Below the pieces are notes generated by a model. It searched no databases. It worked only from the letters and a program-made list of their open reading frames with translations, and had not been told where the DNA came from. Below are positions 7,118 to 52,241 of a DNA stretch of 64,000 nucleotides, piece by piece. The first letter of the stretch is position 1. The number at the start of each line of letters is the position of its first letter. A program made the translations under genes and the position numbers. The stretch comes from Halichondria panicea (Eukaryota > Porifera > Demospongiae > Suberitida > Halichondriidae): the NCBI RefSeq assembly GCF_963675165.1, contig NC_087393.1, forward strand, positions 3,477,502-3,541,501. Direction: 5' to 3'.

Positions 7118-7981
7118 TCAAAGAAGCAGAATCAACATCACCAGACCAACAAGGAGAGAGAGAACTGGCCTCACCACAGCCTGAGAGTTTGTCCTCACCA
7201 CACGACCAGCAATATCCTGTGGCAGCCTAAAGTTGGGGCCAAGTAACTGTCCAGTACTCTCGCACTGAATTTGTCGCAACTGCTCTAGATAGGCCCCAGG
7301 TACGGTGATCCTCTCCTTCATCACAAACCAGTTCACGATTTCGGAGCAGGGTGGACTAGTGAAGGAGCCTTCGTAAGTGAAGTAGTCTCGATTTGTTGGA
7401 AGAAGCTGGTCGATACGAAACCCTACGACTGAGCTCTCATTGGCGACAATTATTTTGGAGGCATTCAGCTGCAGCCAGGGACCGGTTAGTTCCATGTCTT
7501 CATCAACATCGGCTATCACCGCGATCACACCCAGATAATCTCCCACCATTTCGGTTTCGTTTTGCTTCCTCTGCACAAAGTGAATCTCGAGCTCTCCTGC
7601 ATCAGAGTCCACCTGATGCTCGGACCCCTCTCCCGTCTGGCTGCCCCAGTGAAAGTGGAACTGCAAGAAATCGTAGGTACCGAGATGATTCCTAGTCGTG
7701 GCCTGTGAGTTATCAGGGGTGAAACGCACGTTGATTCCCTCATTGGAGAAGGTCCCGTCGTACTCAATGTCAAACCCTGTCATCTCCAGAGGAATCAGGC
7801 TCTCGTCAAACTGGACGTCTGCAGTGATGATGTCTATAGGAGACTGTCGCATTGTGTTCCCTGTGACACATATATTAGGCCACTGGTCTTGCATAGAGTA
7901 GGACCACTCCTTTTCCAAGGCAAGAGCAGAGTTGAGCAAGAGTGCTATAATTGTTGCTGAAGAGAACGAAAAGGCAATCAT
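7118..7981 (-). CDS. Alpha-carbonic anhydrase, secreted and probably GPI-anchored (copy 1)
   Basis: A 287-residue intronless protein. It would hydrate CO2 to bicarbonate at the cell surface; in animals such enzymes serve pH control and mineral deposition. Residues 1-21 form a signal peptide (hydrophobic, ending SALA). The alpha-CA hallmarks are visible: QSPIDI near residue 47, FHFHWGS near 108 holding two zinc-ligand histidines, ELEIHF near 130 holding the third, and GSFTSPPCSE near 205. The C terminus is a hydrophobic stretch (VLSLLVGLVMLILLL) after a polar linker with no cytoplasmic tail, which suggests GPI attachment. The ATG at 7981 is preferred because the second copy starts at the matching ATG. 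It is nearly identical to the gene at 10601-11464. The lack of introns may reflect an old retroposition. Zinc ligands are intact, so activity is expected. Confidence 0.93.
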   Translation of the reverse strand: MIAFSFSSATIIALLLNSALALEKEWSYSMQDQWPNICVTGNTMRQSPIDIITADVQFDESLIPLEMTGFDIEYDGTFSNEGINVRFTPDNSQATTRNHLGTYDFLQFHFHWGSQTGEGSEHQVDSDAGELEIHFVQRKQNETEMVGDYLGVIAVIADVDEDMELTGPWLQLNASKIIVANESSVVGFRIDQLLPTNRDYFTYEGSFTSPPCSEIVNWFVMKERITVPGAYLEQLRQIQCESTGQLLGPNFRLPQDIAGRVVRTNSQAVVRPVLSLLVGLVMLILLL

Positions 7982-9243
7982 GATCTCCACTGTTGTACTG
8001 CTGTAAGTCTCACTAAATTCTGCACTATTTTTCAGTCAGCTAGCTAACTATAATAATGTTAGCTTGCTGATAATTATTCCCGAGAGTATACAGTCATCTA
8101 TTAAAGCAATACACAAATGCGCTGTTATCTGATACGACATACCATAGATTCCTTTAAAACACCCACATCTATACAATTACAACCACATACAACTGCACTC
8201 AAAACAGTGTGATTTCTGATTGTAGCCCGCCTACCTAGCTTCTCAGAAATTGATAACACTGCAGCAGAGGAGGTCAAAGGAGGTCCGACATGTGTGCACG
8301 AATCACTACAAATTCATGCATTGATGTCATTGCGATAACGTGATAACGTCCAGCTGGCCAAATGCATGCATGTCGAGTCTCTAAGAGGCGGTCAGAGGAG
8401 GTACAACATGCAGGATCATTAGGCTTGATTGAAAACTTTCCATTCACGTGTAGGCACTAGTATCATCATGATTAGCCTGCACATTCCTAATATGTAAAGA
8501 TCAGTCATCACCCCACCAGCGAAAAATTGCTACGATTGGCCGGGAAAAACTAACAGCGAAAAAAGTACATGTTAATTAATAACGGATTGGAGTTATGTTC
8601 TCGTCTGATTTCTTGTTTCCACGCTTTTTGGTGTTTCCCCCGGCCAATCATAGCAATGTTTTTCTAGTCGTATTTTAGCATCGATCCCAGGCCGAGTTTT
8701 CGCTTAAAGGGAAGGTACTATGAAAAAAATAAAACTTAATTTTTTCATGGTACCTTCCCTTATAACGGTTTAATAGGGGAACAACTTGGCCTGGTACTAT
8801 AGTTGTCTGCGAATGCGTCAGATTCTGACAAATGTATAATTATTCTCGTTCACTTATTCTCGTTCACTTTCGTGACATTTATATTCGTGTACTATCGTGT
8901 ACTAGCAGTCAGTATCCCGTTTAGAATCGATTGGAATGGCTCTTAGCTGAAGCTTTTATCTCTTAGAAAACATTCATTCTAAACAGAACAAGTGAAGAGG
9001 CTATAAAGCTTTGTCAAGCCAGATATTTTGTGTTGCTATCATTTTTGTTTGGCAAGATCTAGATCCACCATTGATATATCTTATGGTGGATCAAGTGAAG
9101 AGTGTGAGTTAGAGGACTTAGTGCTGCCATCATCAGCTTGAACAGAAGGGATTGAATGACAGTGACACCGTCACACTATAATACAAGGAATTTAATATGT
9201 ACATGCACGTATTATAGAATGTCTACTTCTCTGCACAGGAGCA
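7982..9243. other. 5' flank of carbonic anhydrase copy 1 and repeat-rich intergenic DNA
   Basis: The first part is shared with the second duplicate. Partial ends of the CAGAGGAGG element family occur near 8268 (AGAGGAGGTCAAAGGAGGTC) and 8395 (CAGAGGAGGTACAACATGC). An inverted repeat with arms AAGGGAAGGTACTATGAAAA and TTTTTCATGGTACCTTCCCTT lies at about 8707-8761. The pair GGCCGGGAAAAA and its counterpart lies around 8540-8660. I see no coding exon before 9244. Confidence 0.5.
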
Positions 9244-10039: not shown

Positions 10040-12130
10040 GGAATAGCACTTTGTGAAGCGTAGAATAATTGTGGAGGTTGATTAGAGCACCTAGGGCAAC
10101 TCAGTAGTACACACATTTTTCTATTGATAAGCTTATTATGGATCTGCAGGACAAGTTTTTCAGTGCTGCTTTTACACATTCATAGGCAATCTTTGTAGCG
10201 GAATGACAATTCTTTTTCTTTTCTTGAAAGCAATACTGCATGAACCTGCCTAGCTATAAAGATATAGTATAAAATTGAGTATCACCCGTACCAATATTTG
10301 GCACCCCGGAATGATTTCTCAGTAAGTTCCAGTACTCCATGCAGTGAATTATGTTGGTCTTGAAAGGGTGCAACTGGCACTTATATATACAACATTTCAT
10401 ACACTGTATTCATACATAGTCAATAAACAATCTCTTTCTCTTAATGAGGAAAAAAGTCATTAACATCTATACTATCAAGTCATTAACATCTATACTATAG
10501 TCTATAATTTATTATAGCTAGCTATGAACAAAATACATATACACAACTGTCTAAACTGTCGTTATGGAGTCCACAAAACAAATCATCCCGAGATGTGTTT
10601 TCAAAGAAGCAGATTCAACAGCACCAGACCAATGAGGAGAGAGAGAACTGGCCTCACCGCAGCCTGAGAGTTTGTCCTCACCACACGACCAGCAATATCC
10701 TGTGGCAGCCTAAAGTTGGGGCTAAGTAACTGTCCAGTACTCTCGCATTGAATTTGTCGCAACTGCTCTAGATAGGCCCCAGGTACGGTGATCCTCTCCT
10801 TCATCACAAACCAGTTCACGATTTCGGAGCAGGGTGGACTGGTGAAGGAGCCTTCGTAAGTGAAGTAGTCTCGATTTGTTGGAAGAAGCTGGTCGATACG
10901 AAACCCTATGACTGAGCTCTCATTGGCAACAAATATTCTGGAGGCATTTAGCTGCAGCCAGGGACCAGTTAGTTCCATGTCTTCATCAACATCGGCTATC
11001 ACCGCGATCACACCCAGATAATCTCCTACCATTTCGGTTTCGTTTTGCTTCCTCTGCACAAAGTGAATCTCGAGCTCTCCTGCATCAGAGTCCACCTGAT
11101 GCTCGGACCCCTCTCCCGTCTGGCTGCCCCAGTGGAAATGGAACTGCAAGAAATCGTAGGTGCCGAGATGATTCCTAGTCGTGGCCTGTGAGTTATCAGG
11201 GGTGAAACGCACGTTGATTCCCTCATTGGAGAAGGTCCCGTCGTACTCAATGTCAAACCCTGTCATCTCCAGAGGGATCAGACTCTCGTCAAACTGGACG
11301 TCTGCAGTGATGATGTCTATAGGAGACTGTCGCATTGTGTTCCCTGTGACACATATATTAGGCCACTGGTCTTGCATAGAGTAGGACCACTCCTTTTCCA
11401 AGGCAAGAGCAGAGTTGAGCAGGAGTGCTATAATTGTTGCTGAAGAGAACGAAAAGGCAATCATGATCTCCGCTGTTCTACTGCTTTAAGTCTCACTAAA
11501 TTCTGCACTTTTTTCAGTCAGCTAGCTAACTATAATACTGTTAGCTTACTGTTCTTATTCTCTAGAGTACACTTATTCCCTAGAGTACAGTCATGTATAT
11601 ATAGTAAGCAATACACAGACGCGATGTTTGTTATCCGATACGACATACCATAGAAACGCGCTGTTTGTTGTGTCTGATACGACATACCTTTAAAACGCCC
11701 ACATCTGCACTCAAATAATTTCTGATTGTAGCCCGCCTACCTAGCCGTCATCCTAATCATAAAGCTGCTTCCAGACGACTTTAATTGAATTCCACTCGTC
11801 TACTCTTCTTTTAGTATCTCCAATTCATGTGGAGCTAGCTGAGTGGAATTTAATTAAAGTCCTCCGGAAGCAGTTTTATGATTGACCCAGACAATCCCAT
11901 TCTGCATGATGTCAACCCACACAGTTTACATATGTACTACAAATGTTTGTGACGTTCTCAAAAATTGATAACACTGCAGCAAAGAAGGTCAGAGGAGGTC
12001 CGACATGCGTGCACGAATCACTACAAGTTCAGTGCATTGATGTCCAGGCCAAATGCACACATGTCGAAGGTCAGAGGAGGTACAACATGTAGGCTTGATT
12101 GAGCACATTCCGTTCACGTGTAGGCCTAGG
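10040..12130. repeat. Segmental duplication, copy 2 (carries the second carbonic anhydrase)
   Basis: Paralogue of about 5620-8460 in the same orientation. It is shorter because it lacks the minisatellite expansion and the two inserted elements of copy 1. It has its own differences, such as an inverted repeat around 11762-11880 (arms CTTCCAGACGACTTTAATTG and its near complement) absent from copy 1. Confidence 0.8.
10601..11464 (-). CDS. Alpha-carbonic anhydrase, secreted and probably GPI-anchored (copy 2)
   Basis: A 287-residue tandem duplicate of the gene at 7118-7981, with only about a dozen amino-acid differences. Those I noted include KII to RIF near residue 180, V to I before GFRI, G to S in LLGPN, and changes in the C-terminal hydrophobic segment. 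Signal peptide, QSPIDI, FHFHWGS, ELEIHF and GSFTSPPCSE motifs are all kept, so the active-site zinc ligands are intact. It is intronless like its twin. Both are transcribed from the minus strand with a shared leader sequence, so they probably share regulation. The high identity points to a recent duplication or gene conversion. Confidence 0.93.
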   Translation of the reverse strand: MIAFSFSSATIIALLLNSALALEKEWSYSMQDQWPNICVTGNTMRQSPIDIITADVQFDESLIPLEMTGFDIEYDGTFSNEGINVRFTPDNSQATTRNHLGTYDFLQFHFHWGSQTGEGSEHQVDSDAGELEIHFVQRKQNETEMVGDYLGVIAVIADVDEDMELTGPWLQLNASRIFVANESSVIGFRIDQLLPTNRDYFTYEGSFTSPPCSEIVNWFVMKERITVPGAYLEQLRQIQCESTGQLLSPNFRLPQDIAGRVVRTNSQAAVRPVLSLLIGLVLLNLLL

Positions 12131-15446: not shown

Positions 15447-17736
15447 TCAGGTATGAAACACTGAGAGTGTATGAAGTCCGTCTCTCAACTGACCATAAGT
15501 TGCCGTCTCCCTGACTGCCCACTTACGCAGCATGATGAGTGCTTGTCTGGTTGGCTCTGCTCCTCTTGTCTCTCTCTCGATGCTCGCAATGTCTTCAGAA
15601 GTGAGGGAGAGGGGAAAAGCAAGACACAGCCAACGAGAGCCAATGATGGGAGCAAACGATTGGAGAATTTCCTCATCAGGACGGAGAGATGAATTGCTTT
15701 TGAGGAATTTCTCTTGTAGAGTCACGTCTATAATTGAGAAAGCGTAAACTTCATGATGTATGAATATATATACGCGCATGTACATGCATGGCTGTAATAT
15801 GATATCTTATAAACTAGGTAAATTTCTTACTTGATAATGTATGCTTGATGCAAGCCATATGAATTTTACGAATTGCCTTTCCGTCCTTTAACTTCTTAGC
15901 AATTTCTACAAATTGACTGTAAGTGGCTGTCGATTTTGATGGGTTGTCGACATCAATACTATTATTTTTCCACTTGAGTAGAGCAGCATAAAATTTGTTT
16001 TGGGAACTATGGAAGATTCTCGGATCTTTATCGATTTCGTTTATATCAGCATCACGGAGGCCCAGCACGTGCTTGTATTCTTCATATCCAACTATCTGAG
16101 TCGACAACTGGTGAAGAGCTTCATCGGAGCACTCTTGATTCAACTGTGCTGCAGTTGCTGTAGGCCACTTCTCCATCTGGGGTTCTGGTTTATAATAGTA
16201 AAATGAACTTAATTTGGCAATCAAGCCACATGTATAGGGAAATTAAGGGCCTGTACATTAAATCTAACCTCAAAATGCACATATCTGGAAAAATAGTTCT
16301 TGACGGACTCATACCTTGCAAAGCGACATCATCCACTTTCGGTGAGGTTTCATCATACGTTCGTAATGATCTTTTGTGACATTGTGAGGCTACAGGGTCT
16401 GTTTGTATATGTATACAATTTTACCACAGTATAAGTATATAGATACATATAGTGGAACATTGCATGGAGTTCCAGATACGGATCACGCTAACAAAAAATA
16501 AAGGAAAGTACAGTTGTCGCATTGGATGCCCTTTTGATTTGCCTTAACAGTCAGCTTTACCGCGTACCGTATCTCGGGTCTCGTGCGGCTACGCCTCGAG
16601 GCATAAAACTGCAAAATATAGGCGTACTAATGGAGTAGGGATCTTTGAATGGCGTTTTTTAATACCAGTAATGCATTCATAGCAACCAATTATAACTCAG
16701 TCATAGAATGAGGTTGCAGACTAAGCATATAGCATTGCGTATATAGGCATTTCTCTGCTCTATCATGCAGTATACGTATAGAGATCTCAGATCAAGCCAA
16801 GTGGTCCCTTTTCTCAGATTGCATCCCCAAACCATATGAAAGCTTTACGCCTTCACAGACCCGTGGGCCGTGGTGCTTTAAAAGATAAAGTTTGGGGCCG
16901 AGGAGGTAGGAATGCAAACAATTACATCTATTATCTTATCGAATCGCCGTAACCACGCTTAGGGAATTAGTTACCCTCTATAGTTTCGCGGTCCATAATT
17001 ATGTGAAAAGGGGAAAAGAAGAAGTTCTTTCCCCCCTTTTATGTACCATCAAACATGGTGATTGTCAGTACACACACCACACACGAAAGGATGATGATAA
17101 CTAATGATAAACCAACCACCCAAATCTAAGAATGCAAACACTGCAACCAAACACCAGCTCACATACTATATAGGTGGTATAGCTAAGTATAATGTTGCTA
17201 CGTACATGTCTGAAGAGATTGCAATGGCCTTCAAAGCAAACTAGCTAAAACTCGTAAACGAAGAGCTTATTTTGTAAATCCACAAATTGATATTCAAGAA
17301 AACGTAATAGAAGCCTATGTACTAGGGCATACGTATTCATATACGCAGGCGCCTCGCGGGAAGCTCAGATTGAAATTTATAATGAAGAAGGTAAATAATC
17401 ATATGACATTTTTGAAGAACATCAAATAATGTGGAAAAAGGATAAAATAAAGAGAATAGCTTGTAAGAATTGTTAGTTACGGGAAACATTACTAATGATT
17501 TTGTTCGGAGTGTATGAAAGTTGAAATGGATCGGCCATAAGAATTTTAGTTGTGATTATTTGTTTGTCGGTGGCACTTGTGATTGTGTCATCATTGGCTA
17601 TTTGCTTTATGATTGGCAAGAAAGCGATGAGAGTGTAGATGGTGTTTGGAGTGACGATGACGAGTTTAGCAGATAGTTGTTTCAGCTTGTTGACTTGTAC
17701 TAATTGTCCTGTTGGAGAAGTGTGATGTGTAGTCAC
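15447..17736 (-). CDS. Tandem Death-domain protein (4-exon model)
   Basis: Predicted exons on the minus strand are 17736-17481, 16389-16315, 16184-15831 and 15727-15447. All junctions have GT/AG and matching phase, giving about 321 residues. The third exon encodes a death-fold domain (ECSDEALHQL... LGLRDADINEI... ALLKWKNN...ATYSQFVEIAKKL). The last encodes a second, clearer Death domain (APIIGSRW, LSLTSEDIASIE, ALIMLRKWAVRETATYGQLRDGL). Such domains recruit partners in apoptosis and innate immune signalling. I see no kinase, caspase, NACHT or TIR domain, so an adaptor role is inferred. Exons 3 and 4 are firm. Exon 2 (SLRTYDETSPKVDDVALQ) is likely. Exon 1, low-complexity and threonine-rich, is tentative: it sits 1.1 kb away and only phase supports it. 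The gene lies 745 bp downstream of the ubiquitin-ZU5-CARD gene on the same strand, which suggests related functions. Confidence 0.7.
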
Positions 17737-18481: not shown

Positions 18482-21400
18482 TTATAAGTACGTGTTTCGC
18501 ACTGTATTCAGTATTTCCAGAATGTCTTCAGCCCATTCTTCAGACTCTAGAGCATTAATGAGCTCATAAAAGTGTCCATCACTAAATCCGATACGTTCTG
18601 CAATTACTCTCATAAGCTCATCAGCTATAGAAGCAGTACTACACTGAAGCAAGGCTTTGTGATTGCTGTAAGAAATGACTTTTTTGGCAAAATAGGTGAT
18701 CCCTGAGTTGTAATGGGTATATTAAATCTGGATTTCTTTGTAAATACTCGACGAGCTGAGGTGTAACACTTAAGATTGCTTTGTGCTCAGGGCTATTTGT
18801 ACCATACTTACTATCGTCCTCACGACGGGGTTGCTGCTCAGTGCCAGATGCTCTTGGTGATGGCTGACGATTTCTTCTGAGTGGCAAATACTTAGAGACC
18901 CACTTTGACACTTGTGAAAACATAGATTCTGTTGGCTGAGTCGTCATTTCTGTAGACAAATTCAATAAAATAATAGATGCATGCATGGGTCATGGTGTAT
19001 ATTGGGGTTAGTACCCAAAGGCAGTTGTACGAATTCTGAGGTATACACGTGACTATATTATTATGACAGCATCACAAATGAGAATTAAGACATTATTTTC
19101 TTTGATCTTGATTATTTTTGGACTCCTGCTGGCCAGCCAGAGTGGGTGTATATGGGATAATTTGTAACATTGTATTGTGTTGTGTGCATGTACGTTACCT
19201 GCAACAACAAGGTAGCAGCGTGGAGAGTCTAGACACAATGTCAATGTTCCTACTTGAGATTGGATCCTTTGTGGTTCAACTGGTGAGAAACTGAACACAG
19301 GTGCACTACGATTCGCCTCCCAGTGTGTGGGTATGCATGAAGCTTGCAATACTTGCATACTACCTCTGTTTTGCTGCTGGTAATTTGTTAAACAAACTTG
19401 TATTCCACGTATCAAGGAAGCATCAGTCATGACTACGTTTATCATATAAACACTACTACTAAGAGAGTAGCTGTGAGGGAAAATGAACGACGATTTTGAG
19501 GGATTGTAGACATTAACGCATATAGTGACTTGCTGGTCTTGCGGGATTGCTTCCAAAGAACTTATCTGGATACCCTCATCACTCCAGGTGGCCTCCCTTG
19601 TCACATTGTTTAGACATTTACTGTCTAGTCTATTGAGGTAGTCATCGTTACCTGCACAGCGAAACAAAAACTTACAATATACAGTAGATAAGAGTAAGAG
19701 TGTTAAACTGCTAAACTGCCTTAACATGCGTCATCACTGTCATTACTATTGAATTAATGAGTGGTCTGTGGTTTGTAGCACTGAACTACGCAATCACAGC
19801 ATGTGCGGTTTCTGGGAAGCATAATAACAAATTAGTACTGATTACTATCAAGTGTGTGATGATGCAGGAGCAGGCAAATGCTGTTACTAGCAGTCAGAGG
19901 AAGTACGACATCCGCCTGTCCTAAAGACCCACATTCCTTATTATATCCGGGTCAAAGTTCAATAGAACATCAACCGAAGTGATGCTTATAGCAACTCCAG
20001 GCATCCCTCCTGAAGATTCTGAAGCTGAAACGATGGTTGATTAAGCTATAGCTATAACCTAGATCAAACAGTGCACGAATCAGACTCTTGGCAGCTAAAA
20101 ATAGCGCAGTGCTTGTGTTTGGCAGGTAACACGCAATGAAATGTGAGTCTAAAACACTTCCTTTGACACGCAGATGTCGTACCTCCTCTGACTAGCAGTT
20201 CAACACTCTTACTCTTATCTACTCTTCATTCAATTAATTCAACATCGTGCAACTTACAAAGATGGAGTATTGGTGATTGTGGTAGATTGTAGGTGGATAT
20301 TATGTGTTCATCTTCAAGTATCTCGCATCGATCAGGAGCACAGTAAAACAGTTGTTGTCTACTTGGTTCGAGTCGTTGCTGACAAAACTTTTCAATCCAA
20401 GTTTTTAGGATACCCACTTTGTCATGTGGGTGGAATTGTACCTCATTTCTCAAGCCTGAAGAACTTTCAACGTATAGCTTTTTTAGCACCAATAAAGTAA
20501 TAGGAGTTTCATCACTTTCAATTTCAATTCCATATCTCTTTAACTGATACGTTTCATCCATTTCTTGGCCACTAAACATTAGTCTCTGCTCACTGGGAGG
20601 TGGGTTGCCAGAAACAGCAGCTGATATTCTTGCTTTTAAAGCCAGTACAACATCTTCTGGGTAAACATTTAATTCTATTCGTTCGCTGTTGTAATGTACA
20701 CATACAATTTTGGGACCACTTGTTTGTACAATATGCACTGTGATTTCGTTGTCTATACCACAATCTTGCAACTTTTCATCATTAGCAAGTATCTTCCCCT
20801 GAAAGATCATTACTTGAGTCTCAATTGGTAACTGATTTCGTTCAGCTTTATTGACCAAGTCTTTACATTCCAATACCTTGCTACTGGGCTTGACAGCAAT
20901 AGTCACTGATCGACCATCCGGCAAATGAGCATAGATCTGTATGTTTGTCTCTCCACATAATTTGTAAAGAAGGTGAAGTGTGCTCTCTTTTTGAATGTTA
21001 TAATCACTTAATGTTCGACCATCTTGAAGTTCTTTTCCAGCAAATATTAAACGCTGTAGATCAGGTGGGACACCTACTTTGTCTTGAATTTTGGATTTAA
21101 CATTCTCAATTGTGTCACTGGCTTCAACCTCGAGAGTGATGGATTGACCTAACAAAGTCTTAACAAATATTTGCATTCCTCCGCGGAGTCTAAGTTCTAG
21201 ATGAAGTGTGCTCTCTTTTTGAATGTTGTAATCGGACAATGTACAACCATCTTCAAGTTGTTTTCCAGCAAATATCAAGCGCTGCTGATCAGGTGGGACA
21301 CCTTCTTTGTTTTTAATTTTGGTCTTGACATTTTTGATTGTGTCACAGGCTTTAACGTTGAGAGTGATGGTTTTACCAGTCATGGTTTTAACAAATATTT

Positions 21401-21635
21401 GCATTCCTCCTCTAAGGCGAAGTTGCACATCCACAGTGCTTCCATGCTCCACGCCACAAGCACGGATAGTAGACTCATTTCGTAGACACTTGGATCTCGA
21501 AGTCAGAAAGAAGTGTTCAGGTGGGATACCTTCTTGATGATGGATCTTAGCTTTCACTGTCTCCACTAAATGGTCAGCATCCACATCAATTGGTATCACC
21601 CTACCAGAGGGTGTTCGATAAAATACTTGCGACAT
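18482..21635 (-). CDS. Fusion protein: six ubiquitin-like domains, ZU5-like domain and CARD-like domain
   Basis: Exons on the minus strand are 21635-20258, 19651-19199, 18949-18812 and 18702-18482. All junctions are GT-AG and phase 1, giving about 729 residues. Exon 1 encodes six ubiquitin-like units at about residues 1-77, 78-153, 154-229, 230-307, 308-387 and 388-459. Unit 2 is close to ubiquitin, keeps lysines matching K6, K11, K27, K29, K33, K48 and K63, and has changes such as E16N, R54C and V70E. Units 1 and 2 end in LRLRGG followed by Met, so they could be cut by deubiquitinases. Unit 3 ends in KLCGE and could not. Units 4-6 are divergent. Exon 2 (about residues 460-611) resembles a ZU5-like beta domain. 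The last exon carries a CARD-like helical region ending at TAA 18484-18482. A death-fold adaptor with built-in ubiquitin signals is inferred. One uncertainty is whether 18811-18703 is an intron or coding with a 1-bp shift. Confidence 0.75.
19895..20190. mobile_element. MITE with 9-bp target duplication, in intron 1 of the ubiquitin-fusion gene
   Basis: A 296-bp element with ends CAGAGGAAGTACGACATC and GATGTCGTACCTCCTCTG. It is flanked by exact ACTAGCAGT copies at 19886-19894 and 20191-20199. It is non-coding. A paralogous segment at 12541-12610 (opposite orientation) has the same flanks joined without the element. It belongs to the same family as 5885-5997, 30631-30782, 35347-35477 and 53491-53803. 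Confidence 0.9.
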
Positions 21636-21835: not shown

Positions 21836-22674
21836 TGTGCTACATAGGGATTTGTATAGGAGGATTTATATCCCGTTGCTATGTTGTTGCCAAGTGCAAT
21901 ATGAAGCATATTGCACTGCTGAAAAGTCATATTGCACTGCTGAAAAGTCATATTGCACTGACCACAAAACGCCCCTCTGGCATAATTAAGGGCAAAGTTT
22001 TGTACTTTTTCTATTTTGTGAGAATTTGTTTTTTGGTGTGGATCCCAAACAGGGGCAGCATATTCCAGTTTTGATCTCACAAGTGAGATGTAGAGTTGTC
22101 TTATTAAACATTCTAGTGACGAGTGGCCATATAGAACTGTCGGTACATTATATACCAACCTGCTTGCAGGCATTTCTGCACATTCCTTCTATATGTGTAC
22201 TTGTTTTGACCATGAGAGGTCATGAGAAATCCACACGCCAAGGTATACTTGTATATATAGTGGTCAACTTTAAGTAGGGGACGTCCACTGATATTGAGAC
22301 ACATGTTGGGAGGTGGCGGGCTGAATTTTCTTGATATAGTCATGTATTTACAGATAACTTCGACAAAATTATTGTAATCTATTCCTGAGGTAGCTTGCTA
22401 TCCAAGATATATCAGATGGGGATCTAAGTTCAAATTGATTAGCTTATATACTCATCAATATCGAGTGAGGAACATTGTTAAATGCCTTTTTGAAATCAAA
22501 AAAGACTGCACATACACTCTGACCATCTTCAAGAAGTTTGTGCCAATTGTGCACTGCCGTAAGCAGCGCACCTGTGGTGGATTTTCCTTTAGTGAAACCC
22601 CATTGTTTATTTGAGAGAAATTTGAGTTTCCATATATACCAAAAGTAGCTAAGAGCATCTACTATTGATACCAC
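21829..22674 (-). pseudogene. Decayed LINE reverse-transcriptase fragment
   Basis: Read on the minus strand, three frames in order give pieces of a non-LTR reverse transcriptase. They are GFTKGKSTTGALLTAVHNW followed by FFDFKKAFNNVPH (motif A region, 22674-22444), then YLGVWISHDLSWS (about 22260-22200), then LEYAAPVWDPHQ..KIEKVQ (22110-22000). The frames are interrupted by shifts and stops, and no endonuclease domain is seen. It is a dead partial copy, of the Jockey/CR1/RTE type in general appearance; the clade cannot be assigned from this much. Near its 3' end is a short tandem repeat of ATATTGCACTGCTGAAAAGTC at about 21907-21960. Confidence 0.85.
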
Positions 22675-38965: not shown

Positions 38966-39257
38966 GCACTAGAACGCTAGCTATTGGTAGCTGCAAGAGT
39001 GAGAAAGGAACTGCAAAGCTGCTCCGTTTCAGATCATTAATGCCGTAATTATTGACTTTAAATATCTTGCCCGTGCTCACAAAGAAGGAGGAGCTAAAGA
39101 CCAAATTCCCACTTGCCTTAATTAAGAGGCAGTACATGCATACATACATGTATTTATTTCTGGTTTCTTCATTTAGTGATAGTCGTGTTTTGTGTGGGTA
39201 GTACATTACATTGTTCATGCAATTCAAGTTGATTACTTCTTGTTTTGTTTACAGGCC

Positions 39258-42200
39258 ATGGACAACCCCAGTCCAGTTCCTTCTCTGCACGGCAGTAGAT
39301 ACTATCTGCAAGACAACTATCATCCGTTTGGTCATTACCCAGCAAGGAATTTTCTTGAATACACTTCTCTAGAATCGACGTTTCCGTATGTTTTAGTTAC
39401 TGACTCCGACGACATGCATTCTCTCTTCTACACCATTTGGAAAAACTTCAATCCTGACTTTGACTCGATGGGAACCTTCGATGGACTTTATATTGTGCTC
39501 AATGACAGATCACCATCTATAGTCGCGAGAAGCATCCTATTTCTGTTTCTTTGTCTGAATCTGCCTGGTGATGCTACAGGTCGACATAAATGGCTGTGTG
39601 CAATGTGGAGCATCTGGTTTTGCCATGAGCTACTGCCTGATCACAAGCGCATACTCTTTGAAGCCCTAAAGACACTTTTGGATATTTCTGAGAACTGGAC
39701 CAGCAATGATAACCTACTGAATCAATTTGTAGAGTTTCCCTGCACTGAAACTCTTGTCGATATCAAGCAAGTATGGTCTTCGTGGTACACGGCCCAAGTA
39801 CCAGAGGCAACAAAGAAGCTAATGAAAGAACGGAGAAAGAGAGAATACGTTCCGCATGTTGGACAAGGAGAATTCGATCTGCCTTTTCTCGGCCTGTACA
39901 CGATCAGTGGGCGTTTGGCGCAGCATCTTAACGAGGGCAAACGAAAAGTAATGAGCAGTGAATACAAGGCCTACCATTTACAAGGAAATGTGTACGTTGA
40001 GAACTTGACTGAGGCAATTGTGCCGAAAAACACCACTGTCAATGTGACCATGTTTGAAAATAAAGGAGACTATAGGATATTCCCGGCTCGATCTCCATTC
40101 CGTTGTTTCCAACAAGTTCATATCTCCAGCGTGGACCAAATGCTGGAAGCAAGTATGAATGTGACTGATTTCAACAGAAAGCATGTCAGCAGCATTCCCA
40201 CAAAAGCTTTTAAATTGCAACCTCTTCTAGCCAACAGCTTTCAGCAATTCTCACTTTGGATATCTTGTACAGAAAGTATTCTTAGAAAACAGCAACAATT
40301 GATCACAATTGTATTCTCTTGCCAAGATGTCTTTGAACTGTTTCAGTCCGAATTTGACGGTGAAACATTCAATGTTATTTTTTCTCCACATGTTTTCGAT
40401 GAAGTTGCTCCTCTTGCGCTTGTCCTTGCTGCTAGCAAATTGTTGAACGAAGACGGTGGACTCTTTGTTTGTAATTCTTGTGAATGCCTGTGTGACGCTT
40501 CTTCTGTCGAAGAATACATTCGGCTTGCTTTCGGATTCTCATCTAAGTTTCTTCCTGTGATTTGCGGCATCAGATGCATCAACCATGAAGGAGAAGGCTA
40601 TTCAAGCATTGTTTCATCCGAGCATCTCTGTTTAGAGTCACAACCAGTCCCTGAGAACTCAGTGTTAGAGAGGAAACTGTTGATTTGGGAAAAAGCCAGT
40701 GGTACTCCTCTTATGATCAACTCCATATCTGACTGTCCTGAAATCGGTCAAGCTGTGTTAAAGTGTTTTCATAACTGCTGTTTAGCCGATCCCTCTGCCC
40801 AACCTCCTGTACCTATGCTTTGTACAGATACAGCCATTAACTTGTTACTAACATTTGCAACAAGGATCAAGCCTAACCCTGCTGCCTCACATGCATTCTG
40901 GTCCCAGCTATGCTCAGAATTGAAGAAAAGCCGAAACTTGAGAAGCTATCTGCCGTCAATTCAATCCCAAGCCCTTGTTAGTGGCCTTCATCTCCACCTC
41001 ACTGTTGACATTGCCACCTGTCCTTTGTGTTTGGGCATTCCCCTCTCTGGCTATCTGGGCCAATTCCAAATGAACGTCCCTGTCAAACAGCTGTCGATAT
41101 GCGAGCCCTTCTTTGTTGTTTACATTGGAAAATTTGAAGTCCCTGTACCTGCTGCAAAGCTGTCAACATTAGTGCACAAGAGTCACGTACATGTAATTGA
41201 TTGTGTTGTTGGCTCGGAAAATCTCCTGGTATTGAAAGTCAACTTCATAGCTCCTCTTGAGTTCATTCGCAATGGCTGCAGATTTATACTTATAGAGAAT
41301 GCTCGGTGCTCACTAAACATTTTTGAAGGCCATGTCAAGTCTCTACTGTATGGAAACCTACGTGACTGCCTCGTCAGTGGTCCTCTTATCCCAAGAGCTA
41401 AAGCTCCTATTCAACCAGTGTATTCCCAGCCTTGTTCTCTTGGTAGTATCATGCAGCACTCTTCAAACGGAGACTGCTTCGAAACAGTTATCTCTCTTGC
41501 TCATGACAAACCTGAGCTCCTGACAGCAGAACTGGAATTAAAGAGAACTTCAGAATCTCCATGTACTCGTATCAACGTAACTTGTGCCAACTACAGTGCG
41601 GTTATTCAGTACCCATTTCCAATTGTCTATGGCAAACTTAATTGTCAGCGTTCAAAGAAACACAAGACAGTCACGATAAAAGCACCACGCAGAGCTTACG
41701 ACTACAACGAGGGTGGCCAGCTGTTTTACGTCAATCCTGCAGATCACTTTTCTTTCCCACCTATTAAAGTCAGCTTGACTTTACTTGAGTTTTTTGGAAA
41801 CATACAGTGTTTCACGAAGTATTTGACGTACCGAAAAGAGCTAAAAGTTTCTAACATGCCTAAAGTGTTGCTTGAAGTCGAAAGGGCCTACAGGAAATTA
41901 TTGATCACCACCAATCGCTGTTTGTTCTCGATTGTGACCGATTGCTGTGGGGACTGTTTGAGTGTTGTGGAAATTGTGAACCGTGTGTTTGATGTCAACC
42001 GTAAAGTGCCAGCAATCTATCTGAGCTACATTATTGTTGATTCTCTCCGGGACGAAACCGCCTGTCAATTGGAAGCAGTGCTTGAAAAACTGGGCGAACA
42101 AGTTGAGGAAATTGTTCTTTCTCACGAAGCTTTCAAAGTTCTTCGGTCCTACTTTTTCAATGCTACTGCACACACGGTTTTTTCAATGTACTCTTCTGTT

Positions 42201-43037
42201 ATGGAAAACTGGGATCTTTTTGATCGATCTTTTCAGGCCGTTGTGTATCCGGTGTACCAAGATCCATGCCGTATACAGATGGGTCTTCACTGTGCATTAT
42301 GTAAGAAACCCCTAAAAGCAGACCACACTAATTGCAGCTCATGCTACTCTGTGTTCTACTGTAGCACCAAATGCAAAGTAATGAATCAGTGCGTTCACAA
42401 ACCCAATTGTAAGAAGTCCAAAATGGAATCAAACAAGAAATGTGAGCAACCCAAAAAAGAAGAATTTAGCACCAACTGTTGTGCTTACTGCCACAAAATT
42501 TCCCCTTCTCTTAAATCATGTGCCAAGTGTCACAAGGCCATGTACTGTGGTAAAGAGTGTCAAAAGGCTCATTGGACGAAGCATAAGCATCATTGTTCGA
42601 GCATTGCTGGCACAATCAAAGTTGAGACAGACATACCAAAATGTACTAATTGCAAGCAAGCTTCCAGCAACGTCAAGAAGTGCACAGGGTGTGAGAAGGT
42701 TTCCTACTGTAGCAAGGAGTGTCAAGCAAGTCACTGGAGCCAACACAAGCTGGAGTGCAAGAGAACTGCCTCTGTAGTCAGCAAATCTCTTGCCAGTTCG
42801 ATTGTAAAACAGCAGACAGAATCGGCAAAAACATTTCAGCCTCAATCGTCGTCAGGCACTTCTAAAAGTAAACCTACAGCGTCGAATGAAAAGTCCTCAG
42901 TGAAAAATGTGGAATGTGTATATTGCAGGGGAAAACCAACCAAACCTCAACGCTGTGCCAGGTGCCAGAAAGTGTTCTACTGTGGACTAGAGTGTCAAAG
43001 GGCTCATTGGAAAGAACACAAACTCACTTGCAAGTAA
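39258..43037 (+). CDS. Large intronless DUF4470-like and four-MYND-finger protein (copy 1)
   Basis: A 1,259-residue open frame. The ATG at 39258 (MDNPSPVPSLHG) directly follows an acceptor (TTGTTTACAG) and matches the start of the paralogue, so the in-frame ATG at 39192 is rejected. Residues about 1-110 look like DUF4470, with LHGSRYYLQDNY, FLEY, LFYTIWKNF and ARSILFLFLCL. The large middle (110-1020) has no domain I recognise. The C terminus holds four MYND-type zinc fingers at about residues 1013-1055, 1075-1115, 1130-1170 and 1215-1257; the last three have the full pattern C-x2-C ... YCxxEC ... HW..HK..C and the first is more divergent. MYND fingers bind proline-rich peptides in regulatory proteins. 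No SET domain is visible, so a methyltransferase role is not supported. Function unknown. The paralogue at 47940-52241 is in the same orientation. Confidence 0.88.
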   Translation: MDNPSPVPSLHGSRYYLQDNYHPFGHYPARNFLEYTSLESTFPYVLVTDSDDMHSLFYTIWKNFNPDFDSMGTFDGLYIVLNDRSPSIVARSILFLFLCLNLPGDATGRHKWLCAMWSIWFCHELLPDHKRILFEALKTLLDISENWTSNDNLLNQFVEFPCTETLVDIKQVWSSWYTAQVPEATKKLMKERRKREYVPHVGQGEFDLPFLGLYTISGRLAQHLNEGKRKVMSSEYKAYHLQGNVYVENLTEAIVPKNTTVNVTMFENKGDYRIFPARSPFRCFQQVHISSVDQMLEASMNVTDFNRKHVSSIPTKAFKLQPLLANSFQQFSLWISCTESILRKQQQLITIVFSCQDVFELFQSEFDGETFNVIFSPHVFDEVAPLALVLAASKLLNEDGGLFVCNSCECLCDASSVEEYIRLAFGFSSKFLPVICGIRCINHEGEGYSSIVSSEHLCLESQPVPENSVLERKLLIWEKASGTPLMINSISDCPEIGQAVLKCFHNCCLADPSAQPPVPMLCTDTAINLLLTFATRIKPNPAASHAFWSQLCSELKKSRNLRSYLPSIQSQALVSGLHLHLTVDIATCPLCLGIPLSGYLGQFQMNVPVKQLSICEPFFVVYIGKFEVPVPAAKLSTLVHKSHVHVIDCVVGSENLLVLKVNFIAPLEFIRNGCRFILIENARCSLNIFEGHVKSLLYGNLRDCLVSGPLIPRAKAPIQPVYSQPCSLGSIMQHSSNGDCFETVISLAHDKPELLTAELELKRTSESPCTRINVTCANYSAVIQYPFPIVYGKLNCQRSKKHKTVTIKAPRRAYDYNEGGQLFYVNPADHFSFPPIKVSLTLLEFFGNIQCFTKYLTYRKELKVSNMPKVLLEVERAYRKLLITTNRCLFSIVTDCCGDCLSVVEIVNRVFDVNRKVPAIYLSYIIVDSLRDETACQLEAVLEKLGEQVEEIVLSHEAFKVLRSYFFNATAHTVFSMYSSVMENWDLFDRSFQAVVYPVYQDPCRIQMGLHCALCKKPLKADHTNCSSCYSVFYCSTKCKVMNQCVHKPNCKKSKMESNKKCEQPKKEEFSTNCCAYCHKISPSLKSCAKCHKAMYCGKECQKAHWTKHKHHCSSIAGTIKVETDIPKCTNCKQASSNVKKCTGCEKVSYCSKECQASHWSQHKLECKRTASVVSKSLASSIVKQQTESAKTFQPQSSSGTSKSKPTASNEKSSVKNVECVYCRGKPTKPQRCARCQKVFYCGLECQRAHWKEHKLTCK

Positions 43038-47319: not shown

Positions 47320-47939
47320 ACACCAGTCACCAGGACATTTTAGCTAGCTTTGTATAATTATACAGAATAAATAAAACGTATTACTAACTCAACAAAATTA
47401 TATTCCGTAGAACAATAATTATACGTAATTAAGATGTGTTTATGAATAATACGCTACCAGTTTTGCGTTTTTCTGGCTCCGTTCAAACGTAACGCAGCGG
47501 AAATTTTTATAGGGCTACTGTAGGGCACTCGAAGTAGAAATTTAGTTTCAGCTCCTCCTTCCTTGTATATATTGATTCGGGCAGGGGAGGGGTAGAGGAC
47601 ATTTTGACGTCATGTTTCATCATGAAATTGGCTTTAGAACAAGCTCACATTACAACTTGAGCATGAGATCTTGCAAGCACGTACATGGCATTTTATGTTA
47701 TATGCATGTGCAGAAGGCAATACCCTTAAATCAGGGAGGTTGACAATAATTATGCTAGCGGGAAGCAGAGCTGAAACTATGTTTATTCCATGTAAATACC
47801 GGACATATTCACAATCTAGCCCAGATAGAATATTCTGTCAGTAGTTTACTCTATACAACATTGTACTTCAACTTACAAATAGCACCACAATTTGAATGGC
47901 TACACCATTTAATTTTTCCATGACTCTACAGGTAGGCTG

Positions 47940-50900
47940 ATGGACAACCCCCCTCTCGTTCCCCCTCTGCATGGGACACGCTACTTGTACGAAGACAGCT
48001 TCAAGTACTACTTCCCGTATGGCAATGTTCCTGCAGTAAACTTTCTCGAATGCGTGCCCTGGGAAATCAAAAGCCCTGATATTTTGGTGCTTGCCTGTGG
48101 AGACTTGCGTTCTGTTTTCTACACTATTTGGAAGAACTTCAACGGAGGTTTTGAACAGACATTTGAAAGCACGAATTTTACGATTCACGACGTGTCGGCC
48201 GCTGTTTCAGCGAGGAATATCCTCTTCCTGTATCTCTGCATCAAGATTCCTAAAGACAGTGCTAGTCGTAAAAAATGGCTATGTGCATTTTGGAGCATCT
48301 GGTTCTGCCACGAGCTACTACCTGACCACGAGCAAACCTTGCATGAGGCTTTGAAGACCCTTCTAGAATATTCCAAGAACTGGTCTAGCCCCGACAACCC
48401 TCTGTCTTCGTTTGTACAATTCTACAACCCTAAAACCCTCACTGACATCAAAGAATTTTGGTCCATGTGGTGCCACGAGAAGGTCATGGCATCAGTTAGA
48501 GCGATGAGGGCTGCCAGACAGGTTGAAATGAGCAAGCTACAAGGAAAAACAGAGGGTGAAGCATCTCTTGGATTGTTTGATCTCACTGGCATGTTGGGCT
48601 CAAATCTTAACAAACCGCAAACTATACGACTGAGAAACGAGTACAAAGCCTATCTCGACTCTGGAAATGCGTATGCTGAAGAACTAACTGAAGAGCCACA
48701 AAAGAAGAGAAAAGTGAATCCCACATTTATCGAGAAGCGTGGAGAATATGGCATGTATTACATTCAATGCCCCTACCGTTGTTTTCATCAAGTGTACATC
48801 ACTAATATCAAGAAAATGCTTAGAGCAGGCATGCATGTTACCGATTCCGACAGGAAATACATCGAAGTCAGTGTAGAAGCCTATGAGGAACAACCTCTTC
48901 TTGCCAACAGCTTTCAACAATTCGCATTGTGGGTGTGTAGTACAGCTGATACGTTTCGATGTCGACAAAAGAAAGTTTCGTTCAACTTTGTTTGCTGCAT
49001 AGATCCCATTTCTTTCTGCTACCTCAATAGTAACAAGTTCAACATGGTGTTTGCCTTCACCATCATTGACCTGTGTGCTCCTCCAGCACTAGTCTTAGCT
49101 GGCGTCAGACTTCTCCAAAATGGTGGTCGTTTTGTGTGTGGGTCCGTTCTTCATCTAGACCTTGCTAAAACTATCCAAGAGTTTATTATGGAGTCCTTCG
49201 GGTTCTCCTCCAAGTTTCTACCTGTGATTTGTGGCATCAGGTGTGTGAACCACGAGGGGGAAGGTTATTCCAGTATTGTTTCAAGCGAACACCTTTGCCT
49301 CGAAACAGCAGACACAGACGCAAGACAATCCTCGATGCGTGAGAAGCTAATTTACTGGGAAAAAGTGGACATGTCACCCCCGCTTGTGATCAACTCTATG
49401 TTCGATTGTCCGAAGTTATGTGCTGCACTCGTAAACTGCTTTTACGTCTGCTGTACTCCACTCTTAACACATCATCCTGTCGGAAAAACGGTGTTAAACA
49501 ATCTCTGTACTGATACAGCCATTCAGATCCTCCACTCATTTGCTGTTAGACTCGAGCCAAGCGTCATTAGCTCACATGAGTTTTGGGAGCCATTTGTTGA
49601 AGAAGTGAAAAAGAACAAACAAATGCAAGCCTTCTATGCAACGATTCAAATCCAAGCCCTTGTCACTGGGATTCATCTACACTTCACTCTGGACAAGTCT
49701 AACTGCCCCACTTGTTTGGACAAGCCCATCTCCAGCTACGCTGGGCTGCTTCGTATGGAAGTGCCCATAGAGAAGATATCTGATCGCCATCCCCTTTATT
49801 CAATTTTCGTCACCCAGGAGAAACTCAAATCACCTGAGGGACTGTGTGCCAATGCAAACATGTCTTTTTTGGTGGCCTTTACCGAGTCTTTGTACCGACT
49901 TTCCGCTCATCACTTGGACTGCACATCAGGAACTATTCTTGGAAATATTTTGCAACTCAGTTGTCTAGTTCCTCTCGAATTTGTTGAAAAGGACTACTCG
50001 TTTTCGCTCAACGAATTCACCAGGCATAAAGACACAAAAGGTCAGGTTTATACTTGGCCGAACCTGATGATTGTACATGGTAAACTCAGAGATTACCTTG
50101 TCAGAGATCAAGTCATTCCAAAAGGAAAACTTTCTTCACAATATGTTGCCCCCGAGCCCTACTCTCTCGGTACTGTAATCAAAAATGTTGGAAACGGAGA
50201 TCTTTTTGAAACAACTCTCAGTCTAGCTGAGGGCAAACCAGAATTACTGACAACAAAACTGGATATCCAGAAAGTCTCTAACACTCAAGTGAAAACTGTG
50301 TGTGGAGACAGCAGTTCAGTGATCAAATACCCTTATCCTGTGTATTTCAATAAGATGAATTTACAACGTTCCAAGAAATCGAAAACTCTCGTAATTAAAG
50401 CTCAACGTAGGTGCTACAATTACGATGACGAAGGACAGATTTTTCACGTTAACCCTGAAGACCATTTCTCTCTCCCTCCAGTGATTGTTGATCCTGTCAC
50501 CCTGGAACTCTTCATGAGAATGCAGTATGCTTCCAAAGAGATCATGTTCAAGACAAATGCACAACATGGTAAGGGTGTGTGTCGACTAACGCTAAGTGTT
50601 GAACAGATGGTCAGGCAAATGCTTACGACAAACGATACCATCTACGTTATGCTCTCCTTAGAGAGTGAGCAACTTTGGGGTATTGTGGAGGTTCTCAACA
50701 GGGTTGTTGACGTCAACAGAAAAGTACCCGCTGTTCATGTGAGCTACCTTTTCCTTGACGAATTTCCTGGACAAGTTTCGGATGTTGTACAAAAAGCAGT
50801 GTATGTGGGGGCGTATCAACAAGGAATTAAAGCTGTCAAACTGCAGTTTCTACAAGAGCATTTCCAGTATGTAAAAGAAGTATTTCTCAGCTTCTCAAAA

Positions 50901-52241
50901 AACACTCTTCAGTCCTCACTTTCGAAGTCTTCAGTTGTGCCCACTCTTGAGCTTAAGCAGTCTGTCAGTCAAGCGGTTGTGTATCCTCTATATGAAGACC
51001 CAGGCCGAGCGGTAAAAGATCTCCAATGCCCCATGTGTCGAGGAGCTTTGAAGGTGGAAACTATGCAGAGATGTGCCTGTGAGGAGGTGGGATACTGTAG
51101 CGTTGTGTGTAAGGAGCGCCATTTCCAAGAGCATATTCAAGAATGCAAGTTGTTAAAATATGCAACGGGTAAATCTAAGGCTACTAAATCTGAGGCTACT
51201 AAATCTGAGGCTACTAGTCAAAAACAGATTGTTGAAGATAAAGAACGTTGTGCATATTGTTGGAAGAGTACTCCCTCTCTCAAATCGTGTGCTAAGTGCC
51301 GCAAGATTATGTACTGTGGTCGAGAGTGTCAAAAAAGTCACTGGAAAACACACAAAAACGATTGTATCGTTACCAGCGACGCAGATAAGAAAAGCAAACC
51401 AAAATGCAATAGCTGTGAGAAAGAGATAACTGATGAACTAACTAAGTGTATAGGATGTGAGAGTATGTCCTATTGCAGTATAAAATGCCAGACATACCAC
51501 TGGAGACAACACAAGCTCAAGTGTAAGGGCTCTTCTGGAGTCAAGGAGACTGGTAAACCCAGCGAAGGCAAAGGCTCTTCTAAGCCCGGTGGAATCAAGG
51601 GCACTAGTAATCTCAGCGAAGGCAAAGGCTCTTCTAAGCCCGGTGGAATCAAGGGCACTGGTAATCTCAGCGAAGGCACAGACTCTTCTAAACCCAGCAA
51701 AATCAAGGGCACTGGTACACCTAGCGAAGGCACATGCTCTTCTAAACCCAGTGAAGTCAGTGGTGCCACTAAACCTAGCAGTACCGCTAAAACCAGCGAA
51801 ATCAAGGACTCTTCTAAACCAAGTGAAGTCAAGGGCATTGCTAAACCAGAGTGCTCTTCTAACGTGAGCAAAGCTACTGCCAGCCCAGGTACCAACTCAA
51901 AGCAACAAAAAAAAGGAAAGATGAAAATTAAATCTGGACAGCAAACCTCAAGCACCAAGAAATATCTCGATTCAAAGCAAAAGCAGAATGAAGACCCTAC
52001 TTCTCAACCTGAATCTTTGTCTTCGAGCCCAGACACACTCGATACTACTGCCAGTGAGAGGACAACTGAAAAGGAGAAGGCCAAGGCCAAGACTGGAGTG
52101 AGTATGCGATGTGCGTACTGTGAAAAGAAGCCGACTAAGCCTCAGCGTTGTGCCAGGTGCCAGAAGGTGTTCTACTGTGGACATGAGTGTCAAAGGTCTC
52201 ACTGGAAAGAACACAAGCCAATTTGCAAGTCGATTAACTAA
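47940..52241 (+). CDS. Large intronless DUF4470-like and four-MYND-finger protein (copy 2)
   Basis: A 1,433-residue paralogue of the gene at 39258-43037, colinear along its length. It shares MDNPP(L/S), LHGTRY, FYTIWKNF, KKWLCAFWSIWFCHELLPDH, FGFSSKFLPVICGIRC, GEGYSSIVSSEHLCLE and VNRKVPA. The start ATG lies 8 bp after an acceptor. The N-terminal 110 residues are DUF4470-like. Four MYND fingers lie at about residues 1028-1065, 1098-1135, 1148-1187 and 1390-1428. Between fingers 3 and 4 is an insertion of about 200 residues made of degenerate repeats of about 18-20 residues (GSSKPGGIKGT.NLSEGK type), rich in Ser, Lys, Gly and Pro and likely disordered; it explains most of the length difference. 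A short KSEATKSEAT repeat precedes finger 2. The final finger is nearly identical between paralogues. Function unknown; a protein-binding scaffold is inferred. Confidence 0.88.
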   Translation: MDNPPLVPPLHGTRYLYEDSFKYYFPYGNVPAVNFLECVPWEIKSPDILVLACGDLRSVFYTIWKNFNGGFEQTFESTNFTIHDVSAAVSARNILFLYLCIKIPKDSASRKKWLCAFWSIWFCHELLPDHEQTLHEALKTLLEYSKNWSSPDNPLSSFVQFYNPKTLTDIKEFWSMWCHEKVMASVRAMRAARQVEMSKLQGKTEGEASLGLFDLTGMLGSNLNKPQTIRLRNEYKAYLDSGNAYAEELTEEPQKKRKVNPTFIEKRGEYGMYYIQCPYRCFHQVYITNIKKMLRAGMHVTDSDRKYIEVSVEAYEEQPLLANSFQQFALWVCSTADTFRCRQKKVSFNFVCCIDPISFCYLNSNKFNMVFAFTIIDLCAPPALVLAGVRLLQNGGRFVCGSVLHLDLAKTIQEFIMESFGFSSKFLPVICGIRCVNHEGEGYSSIVSSEHLCLETADTDARQSSMREKLIYWEKVDMSPPLVINSMFDCPKLCAALVNCFYVCCTPLLTHHPVGKTVLNNLCTDTAIQILHSFAVRLEPSVISSHEFWEPFVEEVKKNKQMQAFYATIQIQALVTGIHLHFTLDKSNCPTCLDKPISSYAGLLRMEVPIEKISDRHPLYSIFVTQEKLKSPEGLCANANMSFLVAFTESLYRLSAHHLDCTSGTILGNILQLSCLVPLEFVEKDYSFSLNEFTRHKDTKGQVYTWPNLMIVHGKLRDYLVRDQVIPKGKLSSQYVAPEPYSLGTVIKNVGNGDLFETTLSLAEGKPELLTTKLDIQKVSNTQVKTVCGDSSSVIKYPYPVYFNKMNLQRSKKSKTLVIKAQRRCYNYDDEGQIFHVNPEDHFSLPPVIVDPVTLELFMRMQYASKEIMFKTNAQHGKGVCRLTLSVEQMVRQMLTTNDTIYVMLSLESEQLWGIVEVLNRVVDVNRKVPAVHVSYLFLDEFPGQVSDVVQKAVYVGAYQQGIKAVKLQFLQEHFQYVKEVFLSFSKNTLQSSLSKSSVVPTLELKQSVSQAVVYPLYEDPGRAVKDLQCPMCRGALKVETMQRCACEEVGYCSVVCKERHFQEHIQECKLLKYATGKSKATKSEATKSEATSQKQIVEDKERCAYCWKSTPSLKSCAKCRKIMYCGRECQKSHWKTHKNDCIVTSDADKKSKPKCNSCEKEITDELTKCIGCESMSYCSIKCQTYHWRQHKLKCKGSSGVKETGKPSEGKGSSKPGGIKGTSNLSEGKGSSKPGGIKGTGNLSEGTDSSKPSKIKGTGTPSEGTCSSKPSEVSGATKPSSTAKTSEIKDSSKPSEVKGIAKPECSSNVSKATASPGTNSKQQKKGKMKIKSGQQTSSTKKYLDSKQKQNEDPTSQPESLSSSPDTLDTTASERTTEKEKAKAKTGVSMRCAYCEKKPTKPQRCARCQKVFYCGHECQRSHWKEHKPICKSIN
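51540..51840 (+). repeat. Coding minisatellite in the second MYND gene
   Basis: Units of about 54-60 bp, encoding variants of GSSKPGGIKGTGNLSEG, are repeated about five times. The clearest pair begins at about 51568 and 51622 with AAAGGCTCTTCTAAGCCCGG. The reading frame is kept throughout. Confidence 0.85.

Follow-up and report, generated by a model that had tools for sequence, protein, structure and literature searches.

The window analysed in this study, a stretch of 64,000 nucleotides from the sponge Halichondria panicea, contains on its minus strand a gene in which an array of six ubiquitin-like units is joined to a predicted ZU5-fold domain and a CARD-type death-fold region. The fusion is real and is one member of a small gene family: the 131 Mb genome contains at least six copies of the exon that encodes the predicted ZU5 fold, exon 2 (the window copy and loci L007, L008, L009, L010 and L011), a lower bound since the searches scored best candidates, and all six have a ubiquitin-array frame just upstream on the same strand. 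The reading that we prefer, at a probability of roughly 45%, is that the array serves as an encoded, pre-attached ubiquitin scaffold on a CARD or Death domain adaptor, with the ZU5 domain as a brake and the number of central units tuning valency. This reading draws on sequence comparison and predicted structures. The features of the window gene, in window positions, are as follows.

Exon 1, 20258..21635, minus strand: ATG at 21635, six ubiquitin-like units, ends in T before a GTAAGT donor (phase 1)
Unit 1, 21405..21632, minus strand: diverged, 29/76 identical to the genome's own ubiquitin; ends RLRGG before Met
Unit 2, 21177..21404, minus strand: near ubiquitin, 66/76; K48 and K63 kept; ends RLRGG before Met
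Unit 3, 20949..21176, minus strand: near ubiquitin, 62/76; ends KLCGE, without GG
Units 4-6, 20259..20942, minus strand: diverged C-terminal trio (about 20942-20718, 20717-20484 and 20483-20259); no GG ends
Intron 1, 19652..20257, minus strand: about 0.6 kb long; this intron measures about 54-85 bases in the other five loci
Inverted-repeat element in intron 1, 19676-20230: arms 19676-19713 and 20193-20230
Exon 2, 19199..19651, minus strand: predicted ZU5-fold domain, symmetrical phase 1-1 exon
Exon 3, 18482..18949, minus strand: linker of about 50 aa, then a CARD-type death-fold region homologous to the intact exons of L007 and L008
Frame break, 18688..18700, minus strand: one-base length difference from two intact paralogues, inside the CARD

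The first-pass annotation of this DNA had described six consecutive ubiquitin-like units in an exon of about 1.38 kb that is spliced in phase to a ZU5-like and then a death-fold exon, and both points held at the level of sequence. Exon 1 is 1,378 bases long with its donor at 20258; PF00240 matched it in six stretches (E 3.7e-99, 325 bits against a cut-off of 25.4), and an iterated profile also delimited six units. Read from the sequence, junctions 20258/19651 and 19199/18949 carry GT...AG signals and join in phase, and the joined frame (exon 1, 19651-19199 and from 18949 onward) runs for 713 aa to a stop at 18639. The array donor (T followed by GT[A/G]AG) and the phase-1 end of exon 2 (G followed by GT) share phase and context in all six copies. 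When the window DNA was compared with its two closest copies, the aligned blocks began and ended close to the exon boundaries, except that the block over exon 3 of L008 ran further into intron 2, which measures about 74-282 bases in four copies. The element in intron 1 of the window copy consists of 38-base inverted repeats, 89% complementary, plus an inner 29-base pair. Upstream of exon 1, at about 22444-22674 on the minus strand, a piece resembling a reverse transcriptase (FDFKKAFNNVPH) was noted by eye. The additional junction to a fourth exon that had been proposed was not found, and exon 3 is a single exon in the two intact paralogues. A hidden intron within the window CARD was likewise rejected, as a hand-tried GTAAGT near 18810 with an acceptor gave the wrong phase and both L007 and L008 read the region as one exon.

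The copies of exon 2 differ widely in their distance from the window copy: L007 and L008, both on C5, share 82% and 79% protein identity with it, compared to 36% for L009 and 29% for both L010 and L011. The array frames upstream of the six copies measure 482, 487, 621, 895, 620 and 653 aa between stops and hold 6-12 ubiquitin-like units. The proposed order of ubiquitin array, ZU5 and CARD is best supported by L007 and L008, which are open throughout, with frames of 763 and 913 aa uninterrupted by stops; by sequence and predicted structure, only these two and the window copy are counted here as ubiquitin-ZU5-CARD genes. In L009, a Death domain scores above the Pfam cut-off (25.3 bits), and the same is true of L011 (25.0 bits), where the place of the exon in the gene was inferred from order. 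Two further loci, L014 and L016, have ubiquitin-like arrays before Death-like exons and lack a ZU5 exon. The Death-like exon of L016 matched Pfam Death below the cut-off (E 0.0017) and that of L014 gave no Pfam match, while in pairwise tests both resembled the Death domain of L009 (E 3e-20 and 1e-18). Nine diverged ubiquitin-like units were seen in the fetched part of L012 (G000 C2:8055500-8061500), in which no ZU5 or death-fold exon was recognised by eye. L015 and L017, which by eye have other partners, were set aside, and the unit table omits L013, in which more than one frame is needed to read the array.

The suggestion that exon 2 is ZU5-like stood at the level of predicted fold, whereas plain profiles gave nothing. 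Pfam ZU5 (PF00791) had no match in the exon 2 copies scanned (window, L007, L009, L010 and L011), none of 27 genome-wide Pfam ZU5 matches fell at the six exon 2 places, and the sole weak Pfam match of exon 2 was to Peptidase_M1 (E 0.013, below cut-off). A PDB sequence search with the exon 2 alignment returned nothing meaningful, and pattern searches of viral and of prokaryote collections, with 95 and 75 matches, yielded no confirmed relative. The structure predicted from the six paralogues (mean pLDDT 89.9) had ankyrin, ankyrin-B ZU5-ZU5-UPA-DD and UNC5b at Foldseek ranks 1-3 (E 0.011-0.016). In a second structure aligner, rows 1-8 were ankyrin ZU5 entries (Z 8.8-10.1, rmsd 2.7-3.5 over 122-130 residues), followed by the rat NLRP1 FIIND in row 9 (Z 8.2) and then by GAIN-domain receptors. 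These top rows exceed the range of Z 7-8 that the aligner states as typical for models with no clear match, and as modelled exon 2 is a ZU5 fold; UNC5b itself reached Z 6.6, below unrelated glycoside hydrolases at up to 7.2. No UPA domain was detected in Pfam scans of the window and paralogue exons, and in the three CARD copies a linker of about 50 aa separates ZU5 from CARD. The position of a possible autocleavage site was mapped indirectly. In the portion of PMC3210808 that covers this site, CARD8 F296 is equated with UNC5b L677. UNC5b 683 aligns with model residue 150, which would place the site near residue 144 if the alignment is gapless. At about residue 144 the six copies read RCY, NCY or GVY, and SFS (5/6) or KFS (1/6) occurs at residues 120-122, on an earlier strand. 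The sequences lean towards the absence of an SF/S motif for autocleavage beside the final strand of ZU5.

Exon 3 likely encodes a death fold, and the model leans towards a CARD rather than a Death domain. The structure was tested on the intact exon 3 of L008, not on the broken window copy, and the alignment used for the CARD model (A6) included rows from L010 and L011 and two window pieces. The predicted structure has six helices (pLDDT 76); rows 1-12 of the structural comparison were CARD entries (Z 9.7-10.9), with Apaf-1/caspase-9 CARD entries at Z 10.9, the first Death domain row at Z 9.5 and a designed protein at 9.4, and the best Foldseek match was the ARC CARD (E 0.27). The aligner warns that helical bundles below about Z 13 may simply share a common arrangement. 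By sequence, Pfam CARD remained sub-threshold in L007 and L008 (12.6 and 12.4 bits against a cut-off of 23.9; E 0.14 and 0.17) and did not match the exon 3 pieces of the window, and a PDB search with the aligned exon 3 sequences of L007 and L008 returned no meaningful match. The earlier description of this region as CARD-like is thus backed by the L008 model (Z up to 10.9) but not by Pfam, and the frame in the window copy is broken. Profile searches of exons 2-4 had been put forward as a check on the annotation, which a lack of ZU5 or death-fold matches would refute; plain profiles failed for exons 2 and 3, also in the paralogues scanned, whereas structure comparison gave both ZU5 and death folds. 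The terminal helical domains of L010 and L011 are not counted as CARDs, since the independent comparison was weak (probability 0.5%, E 0.12, for L010) and Pfam CARD was negative. A comparison of L010 with alignment A5 was set aside as circular, L010 being one of its rows.

In the window copy, the upstream frame stops at 18639 within the CARD, the other half of the domain lies in another frame, from 18688 to 18485/18482, and no open frame passes through the CARD. Judging from this sequence, the CARD made from the window copy is probably truncated, or the copy is turning into a pseudogene. It is a serious possibility, somewhat short of even odds, that the window copy is a decaying and functionless duplicate in a family that functions elsewhere. 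The one-base frame break and the inverted-repeat insertion in intron 1 point in this direction. In addition, downstream of L007 (G000 C5:5321873-5325230) there are three CARD-exon copies with in-frame stops (64-72% identity) plus two short pieces; these are a row of decayed duplicates and show that such copies do decay. Against a functionless window copy, its exons 1 and 2 are open, with dN/dS relative to both close paralogues of 0.31-0.39 for ZU5 and 0.36-0.40 for unit 1. Furthermore, a truncated CARD could still act, and the frame break could be an assembly or allelic difference.

Several other frames were observed in the window. Downstream of the CARD exon, two Death-domain-like frames lie at 15447-15806 and 15814-16242 on the minus strand, the first scoring 29.6 bits, above the Pfam cut-off, and the second 15.5 bits, below it; they probably belong to another gene. 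Near-identical carbonic anhydrase frames at 7118-8035 and 10601-11485, also on the minus strand (Pfam E 9.4e-52 and 8.8e-52), probably represent a recent tandem duplication. The plus-strand frames at 39183-43037 and 47913-52241 (1,284 and 1,442 aa) encode a pair of related proteins, and both contain DUF4470 together with four stretches of MYND. A test for silicatein, as a sponge marker, covered six loci among 31 matches, and the motifs in these six were of the cathepsin-L type.

The array had been described as a built-in ubiquitin chain, which is true of part of it. Two of the six window units are near ubiquitin and two of the five unit junctions read RLRGG-M; the other units are diverged, with units 4, 5 and 6 retaining 22, 22 and 18 of 76 residues. 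L008 is more canonical, its units 3-5 matching the genome's ubiquitin at 70, 72 and 71 of 76 positions, and these three units and window unit 2 share A19 and T28 with that ubiquitin. M1-linked (linear) ubiquitin chains are made by LUBAC; the arrays resemble them in the GG-Met bond, present as RLRGG-M at 2/5 window junctions and 3/7 L008 junctions, and differ from them in being encoded by a gene, fixed in length and altered at most junctions. Between the window, L007 and L008 there is a one-to-one correspondence of unit 1 and of the last three units, which for the last three extends to L009; in L010 and L011 only the second-last unit shows clear correspondence. The variable part consists of the ubiquitin-like central units, of which there are two in the window, two in L007, four in L008 and nine in L009. 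K29 and K48 are kept in window units 1-3, many units of the family lack K48 or K63, and most have lost part of the L8-I44-V70 surface. The arrays also recall polyubiquitin precursor genes of the UBI4/UBC type, with tandem units in one exon and some RLRGG-M junctions. However, they do not belong to that class, in which near-identical units each end in RGG: the window units are diverged, mostly without GG, and spliced to ZU5 and death-fold exons. The six ZU5 genes have 48 units in all, with RGG at the end of 8 and GG at the end of 10, and in none of the six does the last unit end in GG. Because of these last units, and because so few units end in RGG, the array is expected to stay on the adaptor, and the sequences suggest that the two are kept joined. 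An ordinary deubiquitinase could split some arrays, although the unit ends imply that, even with every RGG site cut, the adaptor would keep at least four units in all six genes.

By the Nei-Gojobori method, applied with no significance test, dN/dS was 0.13-0.26 between neighbouring central units of L008, 0.31-0.47 for ZU5 across three pairs and 0.36-0.55 for unit 1. Third-last units gave 0.46-0.64, second-last units 0.33-0.52 and last units 0.73-1.01. For L007 against L008, the whole CARD exon gave 0.98 and the CARD core 1.21, and the two window exon 3 pieces gave 0.63-1.05. From these values, the central units and ZU5 look constrained, while the last unit and the CARD show no such sign, a pattern that fits either relaxation or diversification.

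If the array acts as a scaffold, ubiquitin-binding proteins would find several surfaces of the ubiquitin type on it; such recruitment of binding partners is inferred. The missing GG of the last unit would keep the array on the adaptor, as deubiquitinases need GG, and the CARD or Death domain would join or seed a death-fold assembly. The ZU5 domain would restrain the CARD or Death domain, in the way that parts of PMC3210808 and PMC8081665 describe for ZU5 in UNC5b and NLRP1/CARD8. Variation in central unit number, from two in the window through four in L008 to nine in L009, would tune valency. In favour of the scaffold, we count the six exon 2 copies behind arrays, the shared phases, the open L007 and L008 frames, the predicted ZU5 and CARD folds, the low dN/dS in ZU5 and the L008 central units, the last unit without GG, the RGG ends in only 8/48 units, the Death domain of L009 and the related arrays beside Death-like exons in L014 and L016. 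Counted against it are the RLRGG-M junctions that deubiquitinases could cut (two in the window and three in L008), the high dN/dS of the last unit and CARD, the broken CARD frame of the window, the partial loss of the L8-I44-V70 surface, the absence of a Pfam ZU5 match, the sub-threshold Pfam CARD scores, and a Z for UNC5b that falls below a glycoside hydrolase. A search for OTULIN gave no match anywhere, controls included, and one for CC2-LZ (readers of the NEMO/optineurin type) gave 14 partial matches, all below the cut-off.

There are other potential explanations for such arrays. It is conceivable, though unlikely, that the uncleavable N-terminal units form a degron that keeps the adaptor scarce, or under control by proteasome load, through ubiquitin-fusion degradation (UFD). 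Sections of PMC8605321 and PMC8122580 describe degradation of uncleavable N-terminal ubiquitin fusions by the UFD pathway via K29 and K48, the residues kept in window units 1-3. CARD8 offers a parallel: according to a portion of PMC9213247, it is kept under control by the proteasome, which removes the N-terminal part that includes ZU5. However, a degron would seem to need fewer than six to twelve units, many units are far from ubiquitin and lack K48 or K63, and the release step of CARD8 is missing, as there is no UPA domain and no placed autocleavage site. A processed precursor is less probable still: deubiquitinases would cut at RLRGG-M, which the window and L008 do carry (2/5 and 3/7 junctions), releasing ubiquitin or its variants and leaving the last units with ZU5 and CARD as the real product, much as part of PMC8122580 describes deubiquitinase processing of ordinary polyubiquitin and ribosomal fusions. 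The unit ends speak against this (RGG in 8/48, GG in 0/6 last units, at least four units retained), and canonical polyubiquitin genes are already present on C10. Finally, it is highly improbable that exon 1 is a separate single-exon polyubiquitin-like gene that simply adjoins a ZU5-CARD gene: its unspliced frame does continue to a stop at 20226, but array, donor context, ZU5 exon and phase are kept together at 6/6 loci found, and the close paralogues are similar to the window copy from around the ATG as far as the donor, and again from the acceptor of exon 2 onward.

These proteins can be compared with several known systems. The first-pass annotation knew of no described protein that joins a ubiquitin array to ZU5 and CARD. 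No ubiquitin-ZU5-CARD/Death protein was found in the literature searched, which was open-access, with most subscription journals outside it; the claim is qualified by passages of PMC8195603, which report that polyubiquitin is fused to TRADD-N proteins of the DEDD2 clade and that, in separate fusions, FIIND and UPA-ZU5 are joined to members of this clade. The likeness lies in polyubiquitin on an animal apoptosis or immune adaptor, which in Halichondria carries ZU5 and CARD or Death instead. With E allowed up to 10, TRADD-N was matched neither in the exons of the window copy nor in the Pfam-scanned paralogue exons, a search in which HMMER filters drop most weak matches. The C-termini of CARD8 and NLRP1, a FIIND (ZU5-UPA) followed by a CARD, share the order ZU5 then CARD, and the rat NLRP1 FIIND is the row 9 match of exon 2; here, there is no UPA and no SF/S at the indirectly mapped site, and the array replaces the disordered (CARD8) or NLR N-terminus. 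UNC5b, PIDD and ankyrin (ZU5-UPA-Death) are alike in their ZU5 fold and, for L009 and by order probably L011, in the Death domain, but no UPA was found here and the array stands in contrast to a receptor, LRR or ankyrin-repeat protein. In another sponge, Dysidea avara, a figure legend of PMC12909245 lists ubiquitin (UBQ) among NLR architectures and the text mentions NACHT-Zu5; these are NACHT/LRR receptors, and the sections of that paper that cover them describe no ubiquitin array. Polyubiquitin on a cell-death adaptor is therefore already in print, while no version was found in the literature searched that has ZU5-CARD or ZU5-Death behind a dedicated and in part uncleavable array.

These genes add ZU5-CARD and ZU5-Death adaptors to the one printed case of a polyubiquitin death adaptor that was found, as reported in passages of PMC8195603. 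A broader proposal, which we regard as rather doubtful, is that an animal lineage has made the ubiquitin chain a gene-encoded signalling platform of fixed length: the chain would be translated together with the death-fold adaptor, where otherwise an E3 ligase would build a linear chain on it, its exit site would be destroyed, and unit duplication (two to nine central units) would set the valency of CARD and Death adaptors. The family provides naturally varied chains for comparison, with 6-12 units and with intact or altered surfaces. If the array is a scaffold, it would constitute a natural test of whether a ubiquitin chain can signal by its presence beside a death-fold adaptor, without conjugating enzymes.
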